Source: Prevotella sp.
GTDB lineage: Bacteria; Bacteroidota; Bacteroidia; Bacteroidales; Bacteroidaceae
Length of the DNA: 27,180 bases
Assembly: GCA_017541365.1 (NCBI GenBank)
Contig: JAFXZF010000051.1
Coordinates: forward strand, 1-27,180
Direction of reading: 5' to 3'
In this document: piece after piece, positions 3,686 to 26,116 of the stretch
Layout of the letters: the number at the start of each line of letters is the position of its first letter
Position numbering within the stretch: the first letter of the stretch is position 1
Position numbers and translations under genes: made by a program
The notes under the pieces: generated by a model
Told to the model about the DNA's origin: nothing
Database searches by the model: none
Seen by the model: only the letters and a program-made list of their open reading frames with translations

Positions 3686-3723
3686 AATGATAGTTGACAA
3701 GTTAACAAGTTGACAAGTTGACA
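3686..3723 (+). repeat. Degenerate tandem repeat, unit GTTGACAA
   Basis: Four near-copies of AGTTGACA/AGTTAACA directly follow the nuclease stop codon. They are related in sequence to the repeat at 2856-2884. The rest of the gap to frr (3724-3814) shows no clear promoter box. Confidence 0.6.
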
Positions 3724-3814: not shown

Positions 3815-4375
3815 ATGATCGACGTAAAACAAACACTCAGCGACGCAGAGGAGCGCATGGAGATGGCAGCCATGTTCCTCGAAGACCAGCTCTCACACAT
3901 CCGAGCAGGACGCGCCAACGTAGCCATCCTCGATGGCATCAAGGTAGAGTCATACGGCATGATGGTGCCACTCAACCAAGTAGCTAACGTGAGCACACCC
4001 GATGCACGTACCATAGCCATCAAGCCATGGGACAAGAAGGCGATACGCGACATCGAGAAGGCCATCATCAACTCCGAGGTAGGCATCACCCCCGACAACA
4101 ACGGTGAGGTAATCCGTCTCGCCATACCACAGCCCACGGAAGAGCGCCGTCGCGAACTCTCCAAGCAGTGCGCCAAGATAGCCGAGAAGGCAAAGATAGA
4201 GGTGCGCAACGTGCGTGGCGACATCAAGGACAAGCTTAAGAAAGCTGTCAAGGAAGGACTCTCCGAAGACCTTGAGAAAGACGCCGAGGGCGACCTCCAG
4301 AAACTTCATGACAAGTTCATCGCCAAACTCGACACCCTCCTCGAGGAGAAGAACAAGGAAATCATGACTGTGTAG
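3815..4375 (+). CDS. frr: Ribosome recycling factor
   Basis: A 186-residue protein of the usual RRF length (about 185). With EF-G it splits post-termination 70S ribosomes. Family blocks are clear: the N-terminal helix ending in [19 protein letters not shown], then [61 protein letters not shown], and the C-terminal helices with [16 protein letters not shown] 3815 gives the standard N-terminus ([15 protein letters not shown]). It is followed after 35 bases by rsgA, another ribosome-linked gene. The gap is filled by a tandem repeat, so co-transcription is plausible but not proven. Confidence 0.97.
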
Positions 4376-4413
4376 TTCACAGTTCGCAGTGCACAGTGCA
4401 TAGTTCACAGTTG
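4375..4413 (+). repeat. Tandem repeat, unit AGTTCACAG, reaching the rsgA start codon
   Basis: Four or five near-copies of the word AGTTCACAG/AGTGCACAG fill the whole frr-rsgA gap. The first copy begins at the last base of the frr stop codon. The last copy provides the TTG used as the likely rsgA start. Confidence 0.7.
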
Positions 4414-5439
4414 AAAGGACTGGTAATAAAAAATACAGGCTACTGGTACACAGTGCTCACCGACGATGGCGCTACGGTTGACTGCAAGGTGAAAGGCAAC
4501 TTCCGCCTCAAGGGCATCCGTAGCACCAATCCCGTTGCCGTGGGTGACAGGGTGGTTGTTAACGATAACCTTAACCCTAACGTTAACGATAGCGGAGGCT
4601 ATTGGATTACTGGCATTCTCGACCGCAAGAACTACATCATCCGCAAGGCATCCAACCTCTCCAAGCAGAGCAGCATCATTGCCGCCAACGTAGATCAGGC
4701 GATGCTCATCGTCACCATACGCCAGCCCGAGACCTCCACCACCTTCATCGACCGCTTCCTAGCCTCTGCCGAGGCATACCGCGTGCCCGTCATTCTCGTC
4801 TTCAACAAGGTCGATATCCTCGACGACGACGAGCGCCGCTACCTCTCCATGGTGCAGCAGCTCTATGAGAATATAGGCTATCAGTGCCTCGTCGTTTCAG
4901 CCACCGAGGGCACAGGGCTCAGCGAGCTTCAGTCGTCCCTCCAAGGCAAGATAACACTCCTCTCAGGCAACAGCGGAGTGGGCAAATCCACCCTCATCAA
5001 CGCCATCATCCCTGGTGCCAACCTCCGCACCGCCGACATCAGCGATGCCCACGGACAAGGCATGCACACCACCACCTTCTCCGAAATGATACCACTACCT
5101 CCCCTCTCTAACGAAGTGGGAAGAGTTTCTGCCCCTCGGGAAACGAGGAGACTGGAGGGAAGTTGGTCGGGGGTGAGTCTTGGTGGGTATCTCATCGACA
5201 CCCCCGGCATCCGTGGCTTCGGCACCTTCGACATCGAGCCCCACGAGCTTACCTCCTATTTCCGCGAGATATTCCAGTTCTCCAAGGACTGCCGCTTCTC
5301 CGACTGCACCCACACCCACGAACCCGGTTGCGCCGTCCTTCAGGCAGTAGAAGACCACTACATCGCCCTCTCCCGCTACCAGAGCTACCTCTCCATGCTC
5401 GAAGACAAGGATGAGGGAAAATACCGCAAGCCAGAATGA
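4411..5439 (+). CDS. rsgA: Small-subunit biogenesis GTPase RsgA (YjeQ)
   Basis: A circularly permuted GTPase that checks late 30S maturation. From TTG 4411 it has 342 residues and begins [13 protein letters not shown], the usual Bacteroidetes start; the frame also allows GTG 4396. Order seen: OB-fold (to about residue 75), G4 FNKVDIL, G5 SATEGTG, G1 [11 protein letters not shown], switch [12 protein letters not shown]3 DTPG, then the zinc knuckle [14 protein letters not shown]. Two stretches look inserted: residues 50-61 ([12 protein letters not shown]), coded by a TTAACG array, and residues about 230-257, coded by an 83-base repeat element between switch I and DTPG. Both keep the frame. The 3' end overlaps mnmA by four bases (ATGA), indicating translational coupling. 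Confidence 0.95.
4559..4591 (+). repeat. TTAACG-type array inside rsgA
   Basis: Units TTAACGA, TAACCTTAACCC, TAACG and TTAACGA follow one another inside the OB-fold coding region. They encode the Asn/Asp-rich stretch [11 protein letters not shown]. The same hexamer array is in mnmA at 6346-6365 and 6409-6448. Confidence 0.7.
5098..5180 (+). repeat. 83-base interspersed repeat element inside rsgA
   Basis: The element opens with CCCCTCTCTAACGAAGTGG and closes with GGTCGGGGGTGAGTCT, the same two ends as the shorter element in mnmA at 5557-5602. Between them it has an extra segment with a CCTCG/CGAGG hairpin (5134-5138 with 5144-5148). It is read in frame as PPLSNEVGR...WSGVSL, replacing what should be a short turn before GGYLIDTPG. 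Confidence 0.8.
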
Positions 5440-6569
5440 AAATAGCTCTTCTCCTCTCAGGCGGCGTCGATTCCGCCGTAGCAGCCAATGAACTCGTGTC
5501 CAGAGGACACAAGCCCGACTGCTTCTACATACGCATAGCACCACAAGAAGATGCTGCTCCCCTCTCTAACGAAGTGGCAAGAGAGGGGTCGGGGGTGAGT
5601 CTCGACCTCGACTGCACCGCCGAGGAAGACATCGAGATGGCATCCGCCGTAGCACGCCGCTATGGGCTGAACTTCGAGATTATAGACTGTCATAAGGAGT
5701 ACTGGGAGCACGTCACCCGCTATACCATGGAGAAGGTCCGTGCAGGCCTCACCCCCAACCCCGACGTCATGTGCAACCGCCTCATCAAGTTCGGCGCCTT
5801 CCACGAAAAGCGCGGCAAGGACTATGACCTTATCGCCACGGGCCACTATGCCCAGACGGAGGTTGACACAGAGGGACGCAAATGGCTCTGCACCTCCCCC
5901 GACCCCGTCAAGGACCAGACCGACTTCCTCTCGCAGCTCTACTCCTGGCAGTTAGAGAAAGCTATCTTCCCCATCGGCCACATGATGAAAGACGAGGTGC
6001 GCCGCATCGCCGAGCGCGAGCATCTCATCAATGCCCACCGTAAGGACTCGCAGGGCATCTGTTTCCTTGGCAAGATCAACTACAACGACTATATAAAGAA
6101 GTACCTCGGTGAGAACCCTGGCTTGGTCATCGACATCGAGACAGGCAAGAAACTCGGCATGCACAAGGGACTGTGGTTCCACACCATCGGACAGCGCCAC
6201 GGCCTCGGCTTCGGCGGCGGTCCCTGGTTCGCCGTCAAGAAAAACCTCAAGAAGAACATCCTCTTCGTCTCCCGCGGCTACGACCCCCAGTCCGCCTACA
6301 AGCAGGAGTTCAAGATCCACGGCATCAACTGGCTCACCCTCCCCATTAACGTTAACGGGAACGTCACTATCAAAATCCGCCACACCTCCGACTACATCCC
6401 GGCAGTAATTAACGTTAACGCTAACGATAACTCCCCAAATAACTCCCCAAGCTGTGAGTACGTGGTACGAACAGAAATCCCTCTCCACGGCGTCGCCCCA
6501 GGTCAGTTCTGCACCATCTACGATGCCCAGCACCATCGCTGCTACGGCTCAGGCGAGATTGCATTGTAA
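5436..6569 (+). CDS. mnmA: tRNA-specific 2-thiouridylase MnmA
   Basis: Makes the s2U34 modification in tRNA-Lys, -Glu and -Gln using ATP and a sulfur carrier. The 377-residue frame has the PP-loop [12 protein letters not shown] at its start, [19 protein letters not shown], the first catalytic Cys in [34 protein letters not shown], the second catalytic Cys in [14 protein letters not shown], the C-terminal beta-barrel, and GVAPGQFC near the end. Three stretches appear repeat-derived: residues 41-56 ([16 protein letters not shown], before the AEEDIE block), about 304-311 (INVNGNV) and 325-338 ([14 protein letters not shown]). They lie in surface or linker positions, so the enzyme is probably active. 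It overlaps rsgA by four bases. Confidence 0.95.
5557..5602 (+). repeat. 46-base interspersed repeat element inside mnmA
   Basis: A palindromic core CCCCTCTC (5559-5566) pairs perfectly with GAGAGGGG (5581-5588) around a 14-base loop containing AACGAAGTGG. It is followed by TCGGGGGTGAGTCT. Both ends match the element at 5098-5180 in rsgA and are read in the same phase (PLSNEV and SGVSL). Confidence 0.85.
6346..6365 (+). repeat. Short TTAACG array inside mnmA
   Basis: TTAACG, TTAACG and GGAACG in tandem encode INVNGNV in the C-terminal beta-barrel region. Confidence 0.55.
6409..6448 (+). repeat. TTAACG / TAACTCCCC array inside mnmA
   Basis: Units in order are TTAACG, TTAACG, CTAACG, ATAACTCCCC, AAATAACTCCCC. 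They encode [14 protein letters not shown]. The TAACTCCCC unit also forms the intergenic array at 15261-15291. Confidence 0.75.
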
Positions 6570-8505: not shown

Positions 8506-9254
8506 AGTATAATCTGTTCTCTATAATCTGTAATCTATTCAACCTGTTGCTGCCACGCTACTGTGCGGGTTGTGGGACGAGACTGACAGCAGGGGAACAG
8601 AGGCTGTGTCTGGGATGTCTGGTGAGGATGCCACGCACGTGGCTGTGGAGGGAAGCGGAGGACAATGCGCTGGCAAAGACATACTGGCGACGCACTGGCG
8701 ACACGGAGGTAGAGAGAGTGGTGGCACACCTCTCGTACATACCTGACGGGATGGTGAGCAACATCGTGGGGGCGATGAAATACAGGGGCAACAAGAGGCT
8801 GGCACGCTACATGGGACAGCTGATGGCGGAGGAAATGACGACGACGGGGGTATTTGACGGCATAGACTGCCTGGTGGCGGTACCTATAACGCCATGGAGA
8901 AGAATGACGAGGGGATACAACCAGGCTGAACAGCTGGCAAAGGGGGTGAGCAGGGTGACGGGACTGCCCGTCAAAGGAAAAGTGCTGAGGAGGGTGACAT
9001 TCGAGACGTCGCAGACCTGCCTCGCCGGAAATGAGAGGGAGGAGAACGTGACAAGGGCATTTGCACTCAACACAAGGCACGCCAGCAAACTGCAAGGCAA
9101 GCACGTGATGCTCATAGACGACGTGATAACGACAGGGGCAACGACAAGGGCATGTGCCACACTGCTCGCAGAGATACCCGACGTAAGGGTGAGCATACTC
9201 GCCCTGGCTACGGCGAAGCGCAATGTACAGTGCGTAAATATAATTGACAATTGA
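8502..9254 (+). CDS. ComF-family phosphoribosyltransferase-like protein
   Basis: From ATG 8502 this is a 250-residue protein. It begins with a hydrophobic stretch and a zinc-finger-like part, YCAGCGTRL and LCLGCLVRMP, typical of ComF. The PRTase half has KYRGNKRLARYMG, VAVPITPWRRMTRGYNQAEQLAKG, and the PRPP-binding loop VMLIDDVITTGATTRACA. In transformable bacteria ComF acts late in DNA uptake, with links to single-strand DNA handling; in Bacteroidetes the role is unproven. An ATG at 8490 would add four residues, but both starts lie in repeat sequence. The last residues (NIIDN) are encoded by the start of the next TTGACAATTGA repeat, so the C-terminus may have been redrawn by it. Confidence 0.9.
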   Translation: MKYNLFSIICNLFNLLLPRYCAGCGTRLTAGEQRLCLGCLVRMPRTWLWREAEDNALAKTYWRRTGDTEVERVVAHLSYIPDGMVSNIVGAMKYRGNKRLARYMGQLMAEEMTTTGVFDGIDCLVAVPITPWRRMTRGYNQAEQLAKGVSRVTGLPVKGKVLRRVTFETSQTCLAGNEREENVTRAFALNTRHASKLQGKHVMLIDDVITTGATTRACATLLAEIPDVRVSILALATAKRNVQCVNIIDN

Positions 9255-9272
9255 TAATTGATAATTGACAAT
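9240..9272 (+). repeat. Tandem repeat, unit ATTGACAATTGATA
   Basis: Four tandem copies of an ATTGACA/ATTGATA word begin within the last codons of the comF-like gene and continue into the gap before the export gene. They are close in sequence to the array at 2856-2884. Confidence 0.7.
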
Positions 9273-9309
9273 TTTACAGACGAAAATAGAAAACAAATAT
9301 ATAAATTAG

Positions 9310-10113
9310 ATGAAAAAGATTATCAAGACATTGGCACTCGCCACGATGATAGTGATGGCGATGTCGGCATGTAAGGGCGCAAAGGAAGTGGCTTACTTCC
9401 AAGATGTCGCCAACAAGGACACGGTGCTGCTGACAGCACTGGCACAGACACAGCGAGTACAGAGTGGTGACAAACTGCTGATAGTGGTGCACAGCCGCGA
9501 CCCACAGCTCGCCACCCTCTACAACACTCCTATCATAGGCACAAGGGTGGGAATGGATAACACAGGGGGACGCGCGCAGTCAACGATGGCATACACCGTG
9601 GACTCCAACGGACAGATAGACTTCCCCGTACTCGGCAAACTGACCGTGGCAGGACTGAAGCGCGAGGAGGTGGCTGAGATGGTGCAGGCACGCCTCATCA
9701 GTGAGAACCTCTGTAACGACGCCGTAGTGATGGTGGAGCGCGACAATGCGTATGTCAACATACTGGGAGAGGTGGCACACCCAGGACGCTACGCCCTGAC
9801 AAAGGACAACATGACGGTGCTCGACGGACTGGGCATGGCGGGTGACCTCGCCATACAGGGTAAGCGCGTCAACGTGATGCTCATACGCAACGGCAAGGGA
9901 CAGGCCAACACCTACCAGATAAACCTCAACGACCTGAGCAAGACGGTGAGCAGCCCCGCATACTACCTGCAAGAGGGCGACGTGATATACGTGGAGCCTA
10001 ACAACTACCGCAAGCGCCAGACTACCGTCAACGGCAACAATATGCTCTCTACGGGATTCTGGATATCGGTGGCTTCGCTGATAACATCGGTGGTGAGCCT
10101 CGCTACCCGATAG
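9310..10113 (+). CDS. Polysaccharide export lipoprotein, Wza-like (SLBB)
   Basis: An outer-envelope polysaccharide export protein of 267 residues. The N-terminus MKKIIKTLALATMIVMAMSAC is a lipoprotein signal with the lipobox Cys at residue 21. The Poly_export domain covers VQSGDKLLIVVHSRDPQLATL through IDFPVLGKLTVAGLKREEVAEMV. One SLBB domain follows, from AYVNILGEVAHPGRY to YLQEGDVIYVEPN. A single hydrophobic segment closes the protein (FWISVASLITSVVSLA), as in many Bacteroidetes members. It is 68 bases upstream of the Wzc-like kinase, its normal partner in the export complex spanning the periplasm. No promoter is visible directly upstream, so it may be read from galE or comF. Confidence 0.92.
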   Translation: MKKIIKTLALATMIVMAMSACKGAKEVAYFQDVANKDTVLLTALAQTQRVQSGDKLLIVVHSRDPQLATLYNTPIIGTRVGMDNTGGRAQSTMAYTVDSNGQIDFPVLGKLTVAGLKREEVAEMVQARLISENLCNDAVVMVERDNAYVNILGEVAHPGRYALTKDNMTVLDGLGMAGDLAIQGKRVNVMLIRNGKGQANTYQINLNDLSKTVSSPAYYLQEGDVIYVEPNNYRKRQTTVNGNNMLSTGFWISVASLITSVVSLATR

Positions 10114-10181: not shown

Positions 10182-12650
10182 ATGGAGAATAACAATACTC
10201 AGAACAAAACGGTGACCGTGCAGGAAGGCAGCAATACGGTAAACCTGAAGGACCTGTACAGCATATGCCTGCAAAACTGGTGGTGGTTTGTGGTATCGGT
10301 ACTGGTATGCCTCACCATAGCATCGTACTATCTGCTCACTACTCCTAACACCTACTCACGCAAGGCGACGGTGATGATCAAGGAGGACAACAACCGCAAT
10401 ACGCGTACCTTCGCAAGCCAGTTGAGCAACATGGGTTCGATGAACATGTTTAATGCCACGAGTGACGTCAACAACGAGTTGATATGCTTCCAGAGCCCCG
10501 CGCTGATACTCGAGGTGGCGAAGCGTCTGCACATGGACTACAACTATACGAGGAAGGGATTCTTCCAGGACGTGACATTGTATGACACCACACTGCCCGT
10601 GACGGTAAACATACCTGGACTGCTGGACAGCCAGGGAGTGACATTTACCATGACACTCAAAGGCAGCGAAGTGGAGATATCGGAACTCGAGTCGGTACGC
10701 GATGGCAAGAAGATAGAGAGCCGAGAGACATATAAAGGCACAGTGGGAGGCAACGTGAAGACCCCTGTGGGCACCATAGAGGTGAGACCTACGGCGTACT
10801 TCACCCCCAAGACGGAGAAAAACGAGATACAAGTGACGAGATACCCCCTGCTCGTAGCTCTCGGCAAGTGCCAGAGTAAGCTCAATATTTCGATGAGCAA
10901 CAAGATGTCGGCTGTGCTCGATATAACATGCAACGACGTGAACAAACGCAGGGCAGAGGATATCATCAACACCCTCATAGCCGTATATAACGAGGCATGG
11001 GTGAAGGATAAAAACCAGATAGCCGTGGCTACCAGCAATTTCATAGGGGAGCGACTCAAGATGATAGAGCAGGAGCTGGGCAACGTGGATAACAGCATTT
11101 CGACATACAAGAGCCAGAACCTCATGCCAGACCTCGCACAGACGACATCGCTGGCGATACAGCAGGCTACCATGTCGGACAACAAGGCTCGTGAGTATAA
11201 CAACCAGCTCTACATGGCACGTTATATCAAAAACGCACTGCAGAGCAACGGAGCAAAGCATAGCCTCATGCCTGCCAATACAGGAATAAGCGACGGAGCA
11301 GTGGAGAGGATGCTGCAGAGCTACAACACCATGGTGCTGCAGAGAAACAGCCTGGTGACAAACAGTTCGGAGAGCAACCCACTGGTGCAGGACCTCGACA
11401 AACAACTCGAGAGCATGAAGGCATCAATCATCAGCGGACTCAACAACACGATAACAAACCTCTCTACGCTCTTAAGAAGCGAACAGGGCAATGCTGCACA
11501 GAATACGGGCAAGATAGCTCAGAGCCCCGTACAGGCTAAGAACCTCCTCTCTATAGAGCGACAGCAGAAAATCAAGGAGAACCTCTACCTTTACCTGCTC
11601 CAGAAGCGTGAGGAGAACGAGCTGAGCCAGGCATTTACGGCATACAACACGCGTATCATAACTCCTCCTATGGGAGGCAATGCCGCTACATCGCCACAGA
11701 AGGGCAAGATACTGGGTATAGCACTCATACTGGGACTGCTCATACCAGTGGCTATACTCTACATACGCGAGATGCTCAATACCACCGTACGTGGACGCAG
11801 AGACCTGGAAGCACTCACAGTGCCATACATAGGCGAGATACCACAGTACCAGACCAAGGAGATGATGAAGAAGCACCGCTTCAGCTGGTTCCGTAGGGTG
11901 GACAACTCACTGGGATACAAGATACTCGTAAAGCCACGTAGCAGAAACATAATCAATGAGGCATTCCGCGTGATAAGGACCAACCTCGAGTTTATGATAA
12001 ACAGCACGGGCAAGGATACGAAGGTCATCATGGCAACGAGCTTCAACCCTGGATCGGGAAAGACATTCCTGCTCTCAAACATCGCCGCAAGTTTCGCCAT
12101 AAAGGATAAGAAGGTGGTGGTGATAGACCTCGACCTGAGACGTTCCAGCATGGGAGAGTACGTGGGCAACCCATCGAAGGGTATAGCAGACTACCTGGCA
12201 TACAAGACAGACGAGTGTCCAGTAGTACCTGTACAGGGTACCGACAACATGTCGATAATACCTGTGGGCTCTATACCTCCTAACCCAACGGAACTGCTCT
12301 ACAACGAGCGACTGGAGGAACTCATCGCCAAACTGCGCAAGGAGTACGACTACGTATTCATAGACTGTCCGCCAGTGGATATCGTTGCCGATACTACCAT
12401 CATAAGCAAGTGGACGGACATGAGCATATTCGTGATACGTGCCGAACTGCTCGAGCGTGAGATGTTGCCGATGATACAGTCTTACTACGATGATAAGAAG
12501 TTCAACAATATGACAATACTCCTCAACGGCACCTCCAACGGGCATGGACGCTATGGCTACCACTACGGATACAGCCGCTATGGCAGTCAGGGCTACGGAT
12601 ATGGTTCGAGCAACGGCTATGGCTATGCCGTAGAAGACGACGAGGAGTAG
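10182..12650 (+). CDS. Wzc-like polysaccharide co-polymerase and tyrosine autokinase
   Basis: An inner-membrane protein of 822 residues that controls chain length and export of surface polysaccharide. The Wzz domain starts with a first membrane helix (residues about 30-52, WWWFVVSVLVCLTIASYYLL). A long periplasmic coiled region contains NQLYMARYIKN and leads to a second helix near 508-530 (GIALILGLLIPVAILYI). The cytoplasmic BY-kinase has Walker A FNPGSGKTF (about 622-630), Walker A' VVVIDLDLRR (645-654) and Walker B YVFIDCPPVD (724-733). The tail from about 786 is a Gly/Tyr cluster with nine Tyr (RYGYHYGYSRYGSQGYGYG...), the autophosphorylation sites. The PHP phosphatase downstream would reverse this. 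The domain order of Gram-negative Wzc is complete. Confidence 0.95.
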   Translation: MENNNTQNKTVTVQEGSNTVNLKDLYSICLQNWWWFVVSVLVCLTIASYYLLTTPNTYSRKATVMIKEDNNRNTRTFASQLSNMGSMNMFNATSDVNNELICFQSPALILEVAKRLHMDYNYTRKGFFQDVTLYDTTLPVTVNIPGLLDSQGVTFTMTLKGSEVEISELESVRDGKKIESRETYKGTVGGNVKTPVGTIEVRPTAYFTPKTEKNEIQVTRYPLLVALGKCQSKLNISMSNKMSAVLDITCNDVNKRRAEDIINTLIAVYNEAWVKDKNQIAVATSNFIGERLKMIEQELGNVDNSISTYKSQNLMPDLAQTTSLAIQQATMSDNKAREYNNQLYMARYIKNALQSNGAKHSLMPANTGISDGAVERMLQSYNTMVLQRNSLVTNSSESNPLVQDLDKQLESMKASIISGLNNTITNLSTLLRSEQGNAAQNTGKIAQSPVQAKNLLSIERQQKIKENLYLYLLQKREENELSQAFTAYNTRIITPPMGGNAATSPQKGKILGIALILGLLIPVAILYIREMLNTTVRGRRDLEALTVPYIGEIPQYQTKEMMKKHRFSWFRRVDNSLGYKILVKPRSRNIINEAFRVIRTNLEFMINSTGKDTKVIMATSFNPGSGKTFLLSNIAASFAIKDKKVVVIDLDLRRSSMGEYVGNPSKGIADYLAYKTDECPVVPVQGTDNMSIIPVGSIPPNPTELLYNERLEELIAKLRKEYDYVFIDCPPVDIVADTTIISKWTDMSIFVIRAELLEREMLPMIQSYYDDKKFNNMTILLNGTSNGHGRYGYHYGYSRYGSQGYGYGSSNGYGYAVEDDEE

Positions 12651-12765
12651 TTCACAGTTCTCAGTTCATAGTTATCGTAGTCACGAAGTGACGTATCGTA
12701 GGAGCTTTAGCTCCATTTCGTAGCGAAGCGTATCGTTTTCGTACGAACAAAGTAAGTTGAAAAAG
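12651..12765 (+). repeat. Modular repeat: TCGTAG words alternating with mini-hairpins
   Basis: The gap after wzc starts with AGTTCACAGTTCTCAGTTCATAG words. Then TCGTAG occurs three times (12675-12680, 12696-12701, 12718-12723), separated by TCACGAAGTGA (12681-12691), GGAGCTTTAGCTCC (12701-12714) and GCGAAGCG (12723-12730). The same hairpin words recur at 21277-21322 with a different spacer word. No promoter box is visible. Confidence 0.7.
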
Positions 12766-23106: not shown

Positions 23107-23153
23107 AATTCTGTTTTGTATTAATATTGTTAACATATACCATGTTCTAAATG

Positions 23154-23161
23154 CAAAGTTA
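23154..23161 (-). promoter_or_regulatory. Tautomerase -7 box (TAACTTTG)
   Basis: Exact consensus on the minus strand, 48 bases upstream of the ATG at 23106. The palindrome ACGAAAAATTCGT starts at its upstream edge, where a regulator could block the promoter. Confidence 0.65.
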
Positions 23162-23267
23162 CGAAAAATTCGTGTAAGCGAACACAAAGTGGAAGCTTTT
23201 TATTTTGTTGAGCGTAATATTTTATGTATTAAATGAGCAAAATGCAAAATAAATAAAAAGAAATTAG

Positions 23268-23275
23268 TATCTTTG
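23268..23275 (+). promoter_or_regulatory. Nitroreductase -7 box (TATCTTTG)
   Basis: Exact consensus on the plus strand, 35 bases upstream of the ATG at 23311. The -33 position is AT-rich without TTTG. Confidence 0.65.
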
Positions 23276-23310
23276 CAAAAAACTATAATAAAATCATAAT
23301 CACCTCGGAA

Positions 23311-23943
23311 ATGAAAAAGACTGCTTTGACACTTTTGGCATGCGCCATGACACTTTGCTCTATGGCACAGAAGACTATCATCGAATTGCCTGCACCAGAC
23401 AAATCGCTGAGTATGACACTGATGGAAGCTCTTCAGCAGCGTCACTCTACATGGATACATACCAGCAAGGCTGTCAGTGACGAGGAGCTGTCAACTTTAT
23501 TGTGGGCAGCATCGGGCATCAACCGACCTGAAAGCGGACGACTGACGGCACCATCGGCTATCAATGCGCAGGACATACAAGTGTATGTGATGCGACAGGA
23601 TGGTACCTACTTGTATAATGTACAGAAGCACCAGCTGGATAAGGTCAACGATAAAGACCTGCGTGAGGCAGTCTGTGGACGTGATGCACGACCCAAGGTA
23701 GCACCTGTCATGCTCCTGTTGGTCAGCAATATGGATAAATTTGGAGATAGGTCTGAGGAGGCAAAACGTGCTATGGCACCCATAGATGCTGGTTACGTTT
23801 CGCAAAACATCTGTCTGGCATGCACCGCACTGGGATTGAACACCGTACCACGCATGACGATGGACAAACCCACACTGATTAAGGAGCTTGGGCTGAGCGA
23901 CAGCCAGATGCCACTGGTTGATCACCCAATAAGCAAACCATAG
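23311..23943 (+). CDS. Exported nitroreductase-fold protein (SagB-type)
   Basis: A 210-residue FMN-binding nitroreductase-fold protein with an N-terminal signal peptide (MKKTALTLLACAMTLCSMAQ). That is unusual for a flavoenzyme but frequent in this Bacteroidetes subgroup. Family blocks: LMEALQQRHSTWIHTSKAVSDEELSTLLWAASGINRP (the RRSxR-like FMN site), SAINAQDIQVYVM, APVMLLLVSN, DAGYVSQNICLACTALGLNTVPRM, and the closing LGLSDSQMPLVDHPI. The electron donor and substrate are not evident. It is followed after 32 bases by the TIGR04076 gene, forming a two-gene unit under the copy A promoter. Confidence 0.85.
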   Translation: MKKTALTLLACAMTLCSMAQKTIIELPAPDKSLSMTLMEALQQRHSTWIHTSKAVSDEELSTLLWAASGINRPESGRLTAPSAINAQDIQVYVMRQDGTYLYNVQKHQLDKVNDKDLREAVCGRDARPKVAPVMLLLVSNMDKFGDRSEEAKRAMAPIDAGYVSQNICLACTALGLNTVPRMTMDKPTLIKELGLSDSQMPLVDHPISKP

Positions 23944-25093: not shown

Positions 25094-25121
25094 AGAATTT
25101 TTATCTTCAATGTTCCAGATG

Positions 25122-25129
25122 CAAAGTTA
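25122..25129 (-). promoter_or_regulatory. AlkZ-related gene -7 box (TAACTTTG)
   Basis: Identical to the box in copy A, 28 bases upstream of the ATG at 25093, with the same palindrome at its upstream edge. Confidence 0.6.
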
Positions 25130-25236
25130 CGAAAAATTCGTGTAAGCGAACACGAAGTGGAAGCTTTTTATTTTGTTGAGCGTAAGAATTTTATGCATTA
25201 AATGGGCAAAATGCGAAATAAATAAAAAGAAATCAT

Positions 25237-25244
25237 TACCTTTG
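25237..25244 (+). promoter_or_regulatory. Flavodoxin -7 box (TACCTTTG)
   Basis: Consensus -7 box 40 bases upstream of the flavodoxin ATG at 25285. It differs from copy A only in the two variable positions and flanks, so both promoters appear functional. Confidence 0.65.
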
Positions 25245-25284
25245 CAGTCAGGAACTAAAATCTATAAACATGACATTATAAATT

Positions 25285-25839: not shown

Positions 25840-26116
25840 GCTTTACTCTGTCAATTTTGGCTTCGTCCATATCAATGATATTACCGCCACATACATACCT
25901 GTAGGAACTTTTAGTATTCGATGATATGTTAGAGATTTTGATATAAGGTGAATCAGCCTTCAGATACGTATTGTCTTACCCTGAAAAACGTTGAATAATA
26001 AACAACGTTTTTCAGGGTAAGACATTAATCTATATTCTAGATTATATTTAGTTAATTGTTTGAAGAATTGATTTGTTATTCTTAGATAACAACTGTTGTT
26101 CCGCTGGTAGCAAATA
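25840..26116. terminator. Convergent intergenic region with a perfect 21-bp hairpin
   Basis: GTCTTACCCTGAAAAACGTTG (25973-25993) and its exact complement (26003-26023) form a 21-bp stem with the 9-base loop AATAATAAA. It stands between the convergent flavodoxin and acetyltransferase genes and probably ends both transcripts. No T run of note follows on the plus strand. The rest of this 277-base stretch holds no feature I can support. Confidence 0.7.

Follow-up and report, generated by a model that had tools for sequence, protein, structure and literature searches.

Palindromic repeats within the open frames of rsgA and mnmA in Prevotella and their candidate link to DUF559 nuclease genes

Introduction

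How does one short DNA element come to stand in frame in two adjacent, unrelated genes? The question is raised by a stretch of 27,180 nucleotides from Prevotella sp. (assembly GCA_017541365.1, contig JAFXZF010000051.1), referred to below as the window, in which rsgA and mnmA each hold a copy of a palindromic element inside the open reading frame (ORF). An earlier note, made from the sequence, had likened the element to the Rickettsia palindromic elements (RPEs) that add peptide segments to proteins. Repetitive extragenic palindromic sequences (REPs) are held to lie mostly outside genes. The analysis reported here leads to the reading, given a probability of about 0.7, that the two copies are miniature coding members of a system of REPs and DUF559 nuclease genes, inserted as DNA in rsgA and mnmA and translated.

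Results

Copy A lies in rsgA (4396..5439, + strand; small-subunit-dependent GTPase A, recognised from its ORF, homologues and PDB matches to 1u0l and RsgA chains) and copy B in mnmA (5436..6569, + strand; tRNA 2-thiouridine synthase, recognised from its ORF, homologues and PDB matches to 2hma and 2der), the two reading frames overlapping by four bases. Both copies start with CCCCTCTCTAACGAAGTGG, exact at 5101-5119 and 5559-5577 and found nowhere else in the window at up to three mismatches (100 shuffles: 0), and both end exactly in the 3' tail TCGGGGGTGAGTCT (5167..5180 and 5589..5602, + strand); a third match to this tail at 10087-10100, with 2 mismatches, is of the kind expected by chance. 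Sequence matches thus bear out the earlier claim of one element in frame in both genes, with limits of 5101..5180 for copy A, a long form of 80 nt on the + strand, and 5559..5602 for copy B, a short form of 44 nt on the same strand. In copy B a left arm of 9 bp, CCCCTCTCT (5559..5567, +), and its perfect complement, AGAGAGGGG (5580..5588, +), enclose a 12-nt loop and are followed by the one-sided 14-nt tail, an arrangement shared with REPs; the inverted repeat had correctly been called perfect but its arms had been given as 8 bp. Copy A contains an inner hairpin, as proposed, but its inner module AAGAGTTTCTGCCCC..GGGAAACGAGG recurs in genomes G003 (L082, L088, L132) and G186 (L195, L205, L206, and a weaker match at L201), mutS2 included, by which a unique expansion is ruled out. 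Both copies yield the peptide PLSNEV(G/A)R...SGVS. The shared phase, although real, is weak evidence, since in each copy two of the three forward frames are closed, so that the phase was required. Among curated Rfam families, only a tRNA at 2782-2854 was matched in the window, and the element itself had no match.

Both segments are DNA insertions relative to empty alleles. Alignment placed the ends of the translated inserts at codons 235-262 of rsgA (5098..5181, +), where 28 aa stand in place of the Gly-Val found in near-identical RsgA proteins, a net gain of 26 aa, and at codons 41-56 of mnmA (5556..5603, +), where 16 aa stand against QED-A-DLDCT in empty homologues. The RsgA homologues P0122-P0124 (99% identical) and P0125 (97%) all read MIPL-GV-GGYL and P0127 (91%) is likewise empty; P0121 (99%) carries the same insert, P0126 (90%) a short version, and the rsgA gene of locus L001 a 39-nt version of the element at the same point. 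The peptide is present in four of 25 informative MnmA homologues (P0001, P0002, P0003 and P0005) and a short turn in 20, while P0039 bears a different extension, EGEQGSGMSG, and P0004 starts downstream of the site. The expectation that homologues have a short turn at both points held for most MnmA homologues, but about half of 20 RsgA homologues have longer loops of other sequence there; the PDB homologue 1u0l has 3 residues between the stretches aligned around the insert.

The closest of the fetched loci belong to Prevotella assemblies, for example from yak reticulum (L001) and roe deer rumen (L002). Among 80 mnmA loci the element was present in L001 and L003 and absent from 76 others, the anchors having caught an unrelated stretch in L061 and L076 (2/80 loci); L039 has another insert, LSPKGRSVAGN. 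No homologue with the peptide but without the repeat DNA, a case that would have spoken against the earlier note, turned up among those whose DNA was readable: in L001 and L003 the two occur together. One strain probably carries the MnmA insert (P0001) and lacks that of RsgA (P0125), since the longest contig listed is 23,572 bases for both proteins, which would lie on the same contig.

Other repeats were also observed at these genes. The rsgA loop, from TTTFSEM to IDTPGI, holds other REP-like palindromes in Prevotella loci L055, L076 and L080 and tandem-type repeats in L022, L035 and L069; it is a hot spot, a tolerant site filled by unrelated repeats in other lineages. Short tandem AT-rich repeats (TGACAATT, AGTTGACA, CAGTTCACAGT) lie near gene ends in the window at 2856-2884, 3692-3723, 4372-4411, 9231-9273 and 12647-12672, and repeats comparable to these occupy the rsgA loop of some relatives. 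A second repeat type, TAACGTTAACG, stands in frame in rsgA (4556-4600) and mnmA (6347-6363 and 6410-6430), its sites coinciding with length-variable points among homologues.

A tolerant genome search, proposed in the earlier note, found the element dispersed well beyond the window. Eight relatives carry 14, 1, 12, 16, 0, 9, 0 and 55 copies (6/8 positive), and at up to two mismatches 126 of 200 genomes of a genus sample were positive, with a reversed control pattern matching three of the 200 (10 matches in total). A GTCT pattern at 1 mismatch occurs in 182 of 398 genomes, a count that also admits GGCT copies. Frames hosting the element include metH, mutS2, GluQRS, feoB, a DEAD-box helicase, an ABC-F protein, a ModF-like ABC protein, gldK and a sodium symporter; of 20 host frames scanned, L136, L139 and L148 had no family and others gave weak or partial matches. 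With this dispersal and several housekeeping hosts, the proposal of an interspersed palindromic element that adds peptides in the manner of RPEs, in another phylum, is supported. It was also observed that the element of L121 occupies the opening codons of a frame that matches the lipoprotein GldK of the type IX secretion system, as does, by eye, that of L204 (G186) in a frame with an FGE-sulfatase domain; it would supply part of the signal region if an upstream start were used.

A copy was scored as intragenic where at least 60 open codons lay on either side. GTCT-type copies were intragenic in 12 of 15 cases in G001, 9/13 in G003, 14/21 in G186 and 6/17 in G004, and the figures elsewhere were 3/7 (G006), 2/2 (G283), 0/10 (G138, with 10 of 18 places scored) and 3/57 (H. 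loescheii, G008). Random positions in the same stretches were intragenic at fractions of 0.48-0.90, or 0.61-0.77 for G001, G003 and G186. Pooled by the GTGAGTCT tail, a grouping that is partly post hoc as G186 was chosen after its pair spacing was seen, G001, G003 and G186 gave 35/49 (21/28 when G186 is set aside) against 3/67 for G008 and G138 (Fisher p=5.7e-15); G004 was left out of the pool, which favours the contrast. Copies in genes are thus about as frequent as random positions in these window-tail genomes, and are not depleted. The extragenic placement of classical REPs, absent from this pool, is mixed in G004 and G006 and evident in G008 and G138.

The same DNA is translated in several ways. 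In the sense direction it yields PLSxREGxGVSL and PLSKRGAGGES, and in the antisense direction DSPPAPLSERG and RLTPNPSLxERG; the use of several frames and both strands indicates that DNA moved, and not a peptide module. Inverted pairs with the tails outward, resembling the REP doublets forming hairpins (REPINs), are frequent in relatives, and the window itself has single copies only. Such a pair may lie within one frame, as in DSPLTPLLERGEQLQ...NAYSSPLSKRGAGGES, and in some pairs the long arm consists of the copy A module read on the opposite strand. In MutS2 of G003 and G186 an inverted pair adds about 50 aa immediately ahead of the Walker A strand ILIISGPNAGGKS. The insert is absent from 28 other aligned homologues, a few of which have short unrelated extensions there, L245 in this comparison being the query gene itself. 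A tblastn search with the insert-bearing MutS2 found two other long G186 frames at 70-71% over the insert. The spans of inverted pairs in GTCT-type genomes equal 1 mod 3 in nine of 16 cases and not in seven, those of G008 and G138 being mixed, and are not used as support.

Stretches between REP pairs (18, and L184) were found to hold a DUF559 gene in L295 and L184. DUF559, a Vsr-like domain of the PD-(D/E)XK type and a predicted DNA-cutting enzyme, occurs in 121 of 200 genus genomes. Inverted repeats scoring at least 30, mostly REP hairpins by eye, flank the gene on both sides in 28 of 30 Prevotella DUF559 loci, the best returned and one per genome. No control score exceeded 26 with shuffled flanks or 25 in distal stretches, and inverted repeats were found in 0 of 29 mnmA loci, 0 of 30 mutS2 loci and 3 of 600 random windows taken from the same loci. 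A second set, which has L337 in common with the first, gave 15/16. The repeat varies between DUF559 loci, and the two arms of one locus match. The physical link between DUF559 and inverted repeats is thus shown in most of the Prevotella DUF559 loci tested. In the genus sample, DUF559 was also commoner in genomes with the element (93/126) than in those without it (28/74; p=6.5e-7). The DUF559 gene of H. loescheii (G008, L346) is flanked by the same REP as the dispersed copies, and units with this GTGAGGC sister REP exist, for example, in G008 (L346) and G364 (L343). Beyond the phylum, inverted repeats flank DUF559 in six of ten plasmid loci fetched (of 39 matches) from Cyanobacteriota, Deinococcota and Alphaproteobacteria, the other four being without or borderline. 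Long inverted repeats that are REP-like by eye accompany DUF559 on Pseudanabaena plasmids (L357 and L365, the domain of the latter lying within a longer annotated gene) and on a Deinococcus proteolyticus plasmid (L366).

The REP-associated tyrosine transposases (RAYTs) were considered as mobilisers and are ruled out by the lack of any match to their family, PF01797 (Y1_Tnp), in six element-bearing genomes (G001, G002, G003, G004, G006 and G008). Matches to PF01797 were found in G005 and G007, both without the element, and one of five Y1_Tnp loci has inverted repeats.

DUF559 also occurs within longer frames: in LeuRS (L368, L369, L383), a DegT aminotransferase (L372), ABC-F (L370), an epimerase (L373, and L375 by eye), PriA just before the GITSSGKTE motif (L376), MetH, where the two B12-binding domains flank it (L396), an SF1-type helicase, not far past GPPGTGKT (L367), a GAF protein (L377) and an amino-acid kinase, at the N-terminus (L374). 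These cases were chosen for long frames, and L383 and L396 come from genomes drawn from the phylum. DUF559 in frames of more than 1000 aa could be normal helicase-nuclease architecture, and frame length alone was not counted as a DUF559 insertion. Inverted repeats scoring at least 30 flank the domain in ten of 14 long frames, including L369, L372 and L376; the phylum-drawn cases score 35 (L396) and 15 (L383). The sequences support a full REP-nuclease-REP unit in frame in L369, L372, L376, L396 and some others, though not in every case.

Discussion

The two copies may be accounted for by a REP-type palindrome, a hairpin CCCCTCTC..GAGAGGGG with the one-sided tail YYGGGGGTGAGKCT, that would insert as DNA. 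Copies would survive within genes where their net length is divisible by three and their frame is open, and translation would add them to tolerant loops as extra peptide without any need of splicing, the segments presumably remaining in mature RsgA and MnmA. A DUF559 nuclease, and not a RAYT, would recognise the REP hairpins, cut or copy them and so drive their spread, single and paired REPs being non-autonomous derivatives of the DUF559 unit. Held more tentatively, at somewhat short of even odds, is the broader proposal that a DUF559 gene bounded by inverted REP hairpins is an undescribed kind of bacterial mobile element that moves with the hairpins and multiplies them, the hairpins (as in RsgA, MnmA and MutS2) and at times the whole nuclease gene (as in LeuRS, PriA and MetH) being translated in frame inside housekeeping proteins without splicing.

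The most serious rival, judged unlikely, accepts the in-frame REPs and makes DUF559 a passenger: REP pairs would serve as landing or recombination sites, and the hairpins would be spread by an unseen transposase, replication slippage or gene conversion. It is favoured by the finding that no DUF559 unit with the exact GTGAGTCT REP of the window occurs among loci L311-L356, the nearest having GGGGGTGGGTCT tails on another hairpin (L340, L354), by nine of 62 genomes with at least 10 copies having no DUF559 match, and by the description of CGTC-type REPs, in the part of the source available, as seemingly without a dedicated transposase (PMC3733652). Locus-specific repeats with matching arms would, however, require more than one common landing site; moreover, inverted repeats recur in six of the ten plasmid loci of other phyla, four being without or borderline, and are almost lacking around mnmA, mutS2 and in random windows.

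The lack of an exact unit and the DUF559-free, REP-rich genomes also weigh against the reading that the copies belong to a REP/DUF559 system, as do several further observations. The DUF559 genes of G003, G004 and G186 are flanked by other repeats, and no DUF559 match was found in G001 and G002, drafts that may be incomplete. DUF559 is present in 68 of the 138 genomes with fewer copies, and its association with the element is uncorrected for kinship. Two of the 30 Prevotella loci lack inverted repeats, the phylum-wide figure is 16 of 28 scored loci, and among the long frames L368, L370, L373 and L375 score 28, 17, 20 and 22. The contrast in placement, beyond its partly post hoc pooling, is not cleanly split by tail type: G004, with the window's tail, falls below random (6/17 against 0.61), and genomes with the sister tail also have in-frame pairs, in an ABC-2 permease (L302, L306) and next to the domains of a methyltransferase (L305) and a succinyl-CoA ligase (L307). 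Target-site duplications, sought by eye at the fetched loci, were not established. The source genome is represented by the window alone, copy numbers coming from relatives; coding status was read from open frames and family matches rather than expression; and the AlphaFold models are shallow and poor (mean pLDDT, the predicted local distance difference test, 57.6 and 59.2).

The remaining alternatives fare worse. That the element is untranslated, through ribosomal bypassing or removal at the RNA or protein level, is very improbable; hairpin DNA might be expected to harm a conserved protein, and one insert directly precedes a Walker A strand, but the inserts of the window both have a length divisible by three and an open frame. 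That the peptide is a conserved functional module, such as a tag, degron or binding motif, with the DNA likeness secondary, is more improbable still: both window copies encode the same peptide, but other proteins show at least four frame and strand combinations for the same DNA, which contradicts homology of a protein module, and close homologues lack the peptide. An assembly artefact or chimera, conceivable in mostly metagenome-assembled genomes whose repeats misassemble easily, is the least probable of all, as RsgA P0121, listed with a 25,471-base contig, carries the same insert and the mnmA site is likewise filled in L001 and L003, which come from different assemblies.

Among known systems, the closest mechanistic relatives of the element are REP/REPIN elements. 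With REP/REPIN and RAYT (TnpA-REP) systems it shares a short hairpin that bears a tail on one side, occurrence both singly and in tails-outward pairs, and a REPtron-like nuclease gene between two REPs. It differs in its tail, GGGGGTGAGKCT rather than GTAG or CGTC, and in its linked enzyme, DUF559; the copies of G001, G003 and G186 are also not depleted from genes. Two traits of GTAG-REPs are absent, the tail of the window being GGGGGTGAGTCT and the cognate Y1 transposase going unmatched in the six element-bearing genomes. RepRanger takes REPs by definition as seldom overlapping coding regions and, in the part of its text available, does not mention Prevotella (PMC12306157). The RPEs of Ogata and Claverie resemble the present element as dispersed palindromes, many in frame in unrelated protein genes, where they add tens of residues, but they differ in sequence and phylum, the present host being of the Bacteroidota, and here there are inverted pairs and a linked nuclease family. 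The Rickettsia analogy seems to hold for the working of the element and not for descent. Intragenic REPs have been described in several species and the repeats of R. conorii equated with RPE-4 and RPE-6, according to the available part of the account (PMC3733652). The RU small mobile sequences of enterobacteria, as described in the accessible part of the source, are likewise non-autonomous, can supply coding sequence, lie within genes and carry ORFs, but they form another sequence family in another host group (PMC2759123).

The nuclease itself has a described counterpart in Caulobacter VsrA, of the same Pfam domain (DUF559/Vsr-like) as the REP-flanked genes, on which a DNA damage response was reported to depend strictly, in agreement with a nuclease action of DUF559. 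The available part of that text, in which the word 'palindromic' does not appear, assigns VsrA to mismatch repair tied to cytosine methylation (PMC12907096). Prevotella REPs, coding palindromes in Bacteroidota and a link between DUF559 and REPs had no account among the literature matches listed, and the literature naming DUF559 included no title about REPs. Inteins and homing endonucleases also place a nuclease gene in frame inside housekeeping proteins. Unlike inteins, the frames scanned here had no splicing domain among their Pfam matches and have flanking hairpins within the open frame. In-frame REPs are known in other groups, and the DUF559 unit could be a new kind.

Elsewhere in the window, two intergenic stretches of about 145 bp (23135-23277 and 25103-25246) are 90-91% identical and lie upstream of ORFs starting at 23311 and 25285. 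A 25-bp inverted repeat at 25969-26027, 96% complementary with 9 nt between its arms, is perhaps a terminator.

In genomes of gut and rumen bacteria where REPs lie in genes at about the random rate, they are a live source of new protein segments, and empty and filled alleles among near-identical strains allow these to be compared. For annotation there is a caution: where bacterial proteins contain peptides such as SPLSKRGAGGES or LTPNPSPKGEG, these can stem from the translation of mobile DNA. With the DUF559 link, the spread of REPs without a RAYT becomes testable with one small enzyme and one hairpin. If the link is true, the DUF559 nuclease family would have left its footprint across several phyla in the form of REPs that lack a RAYT.

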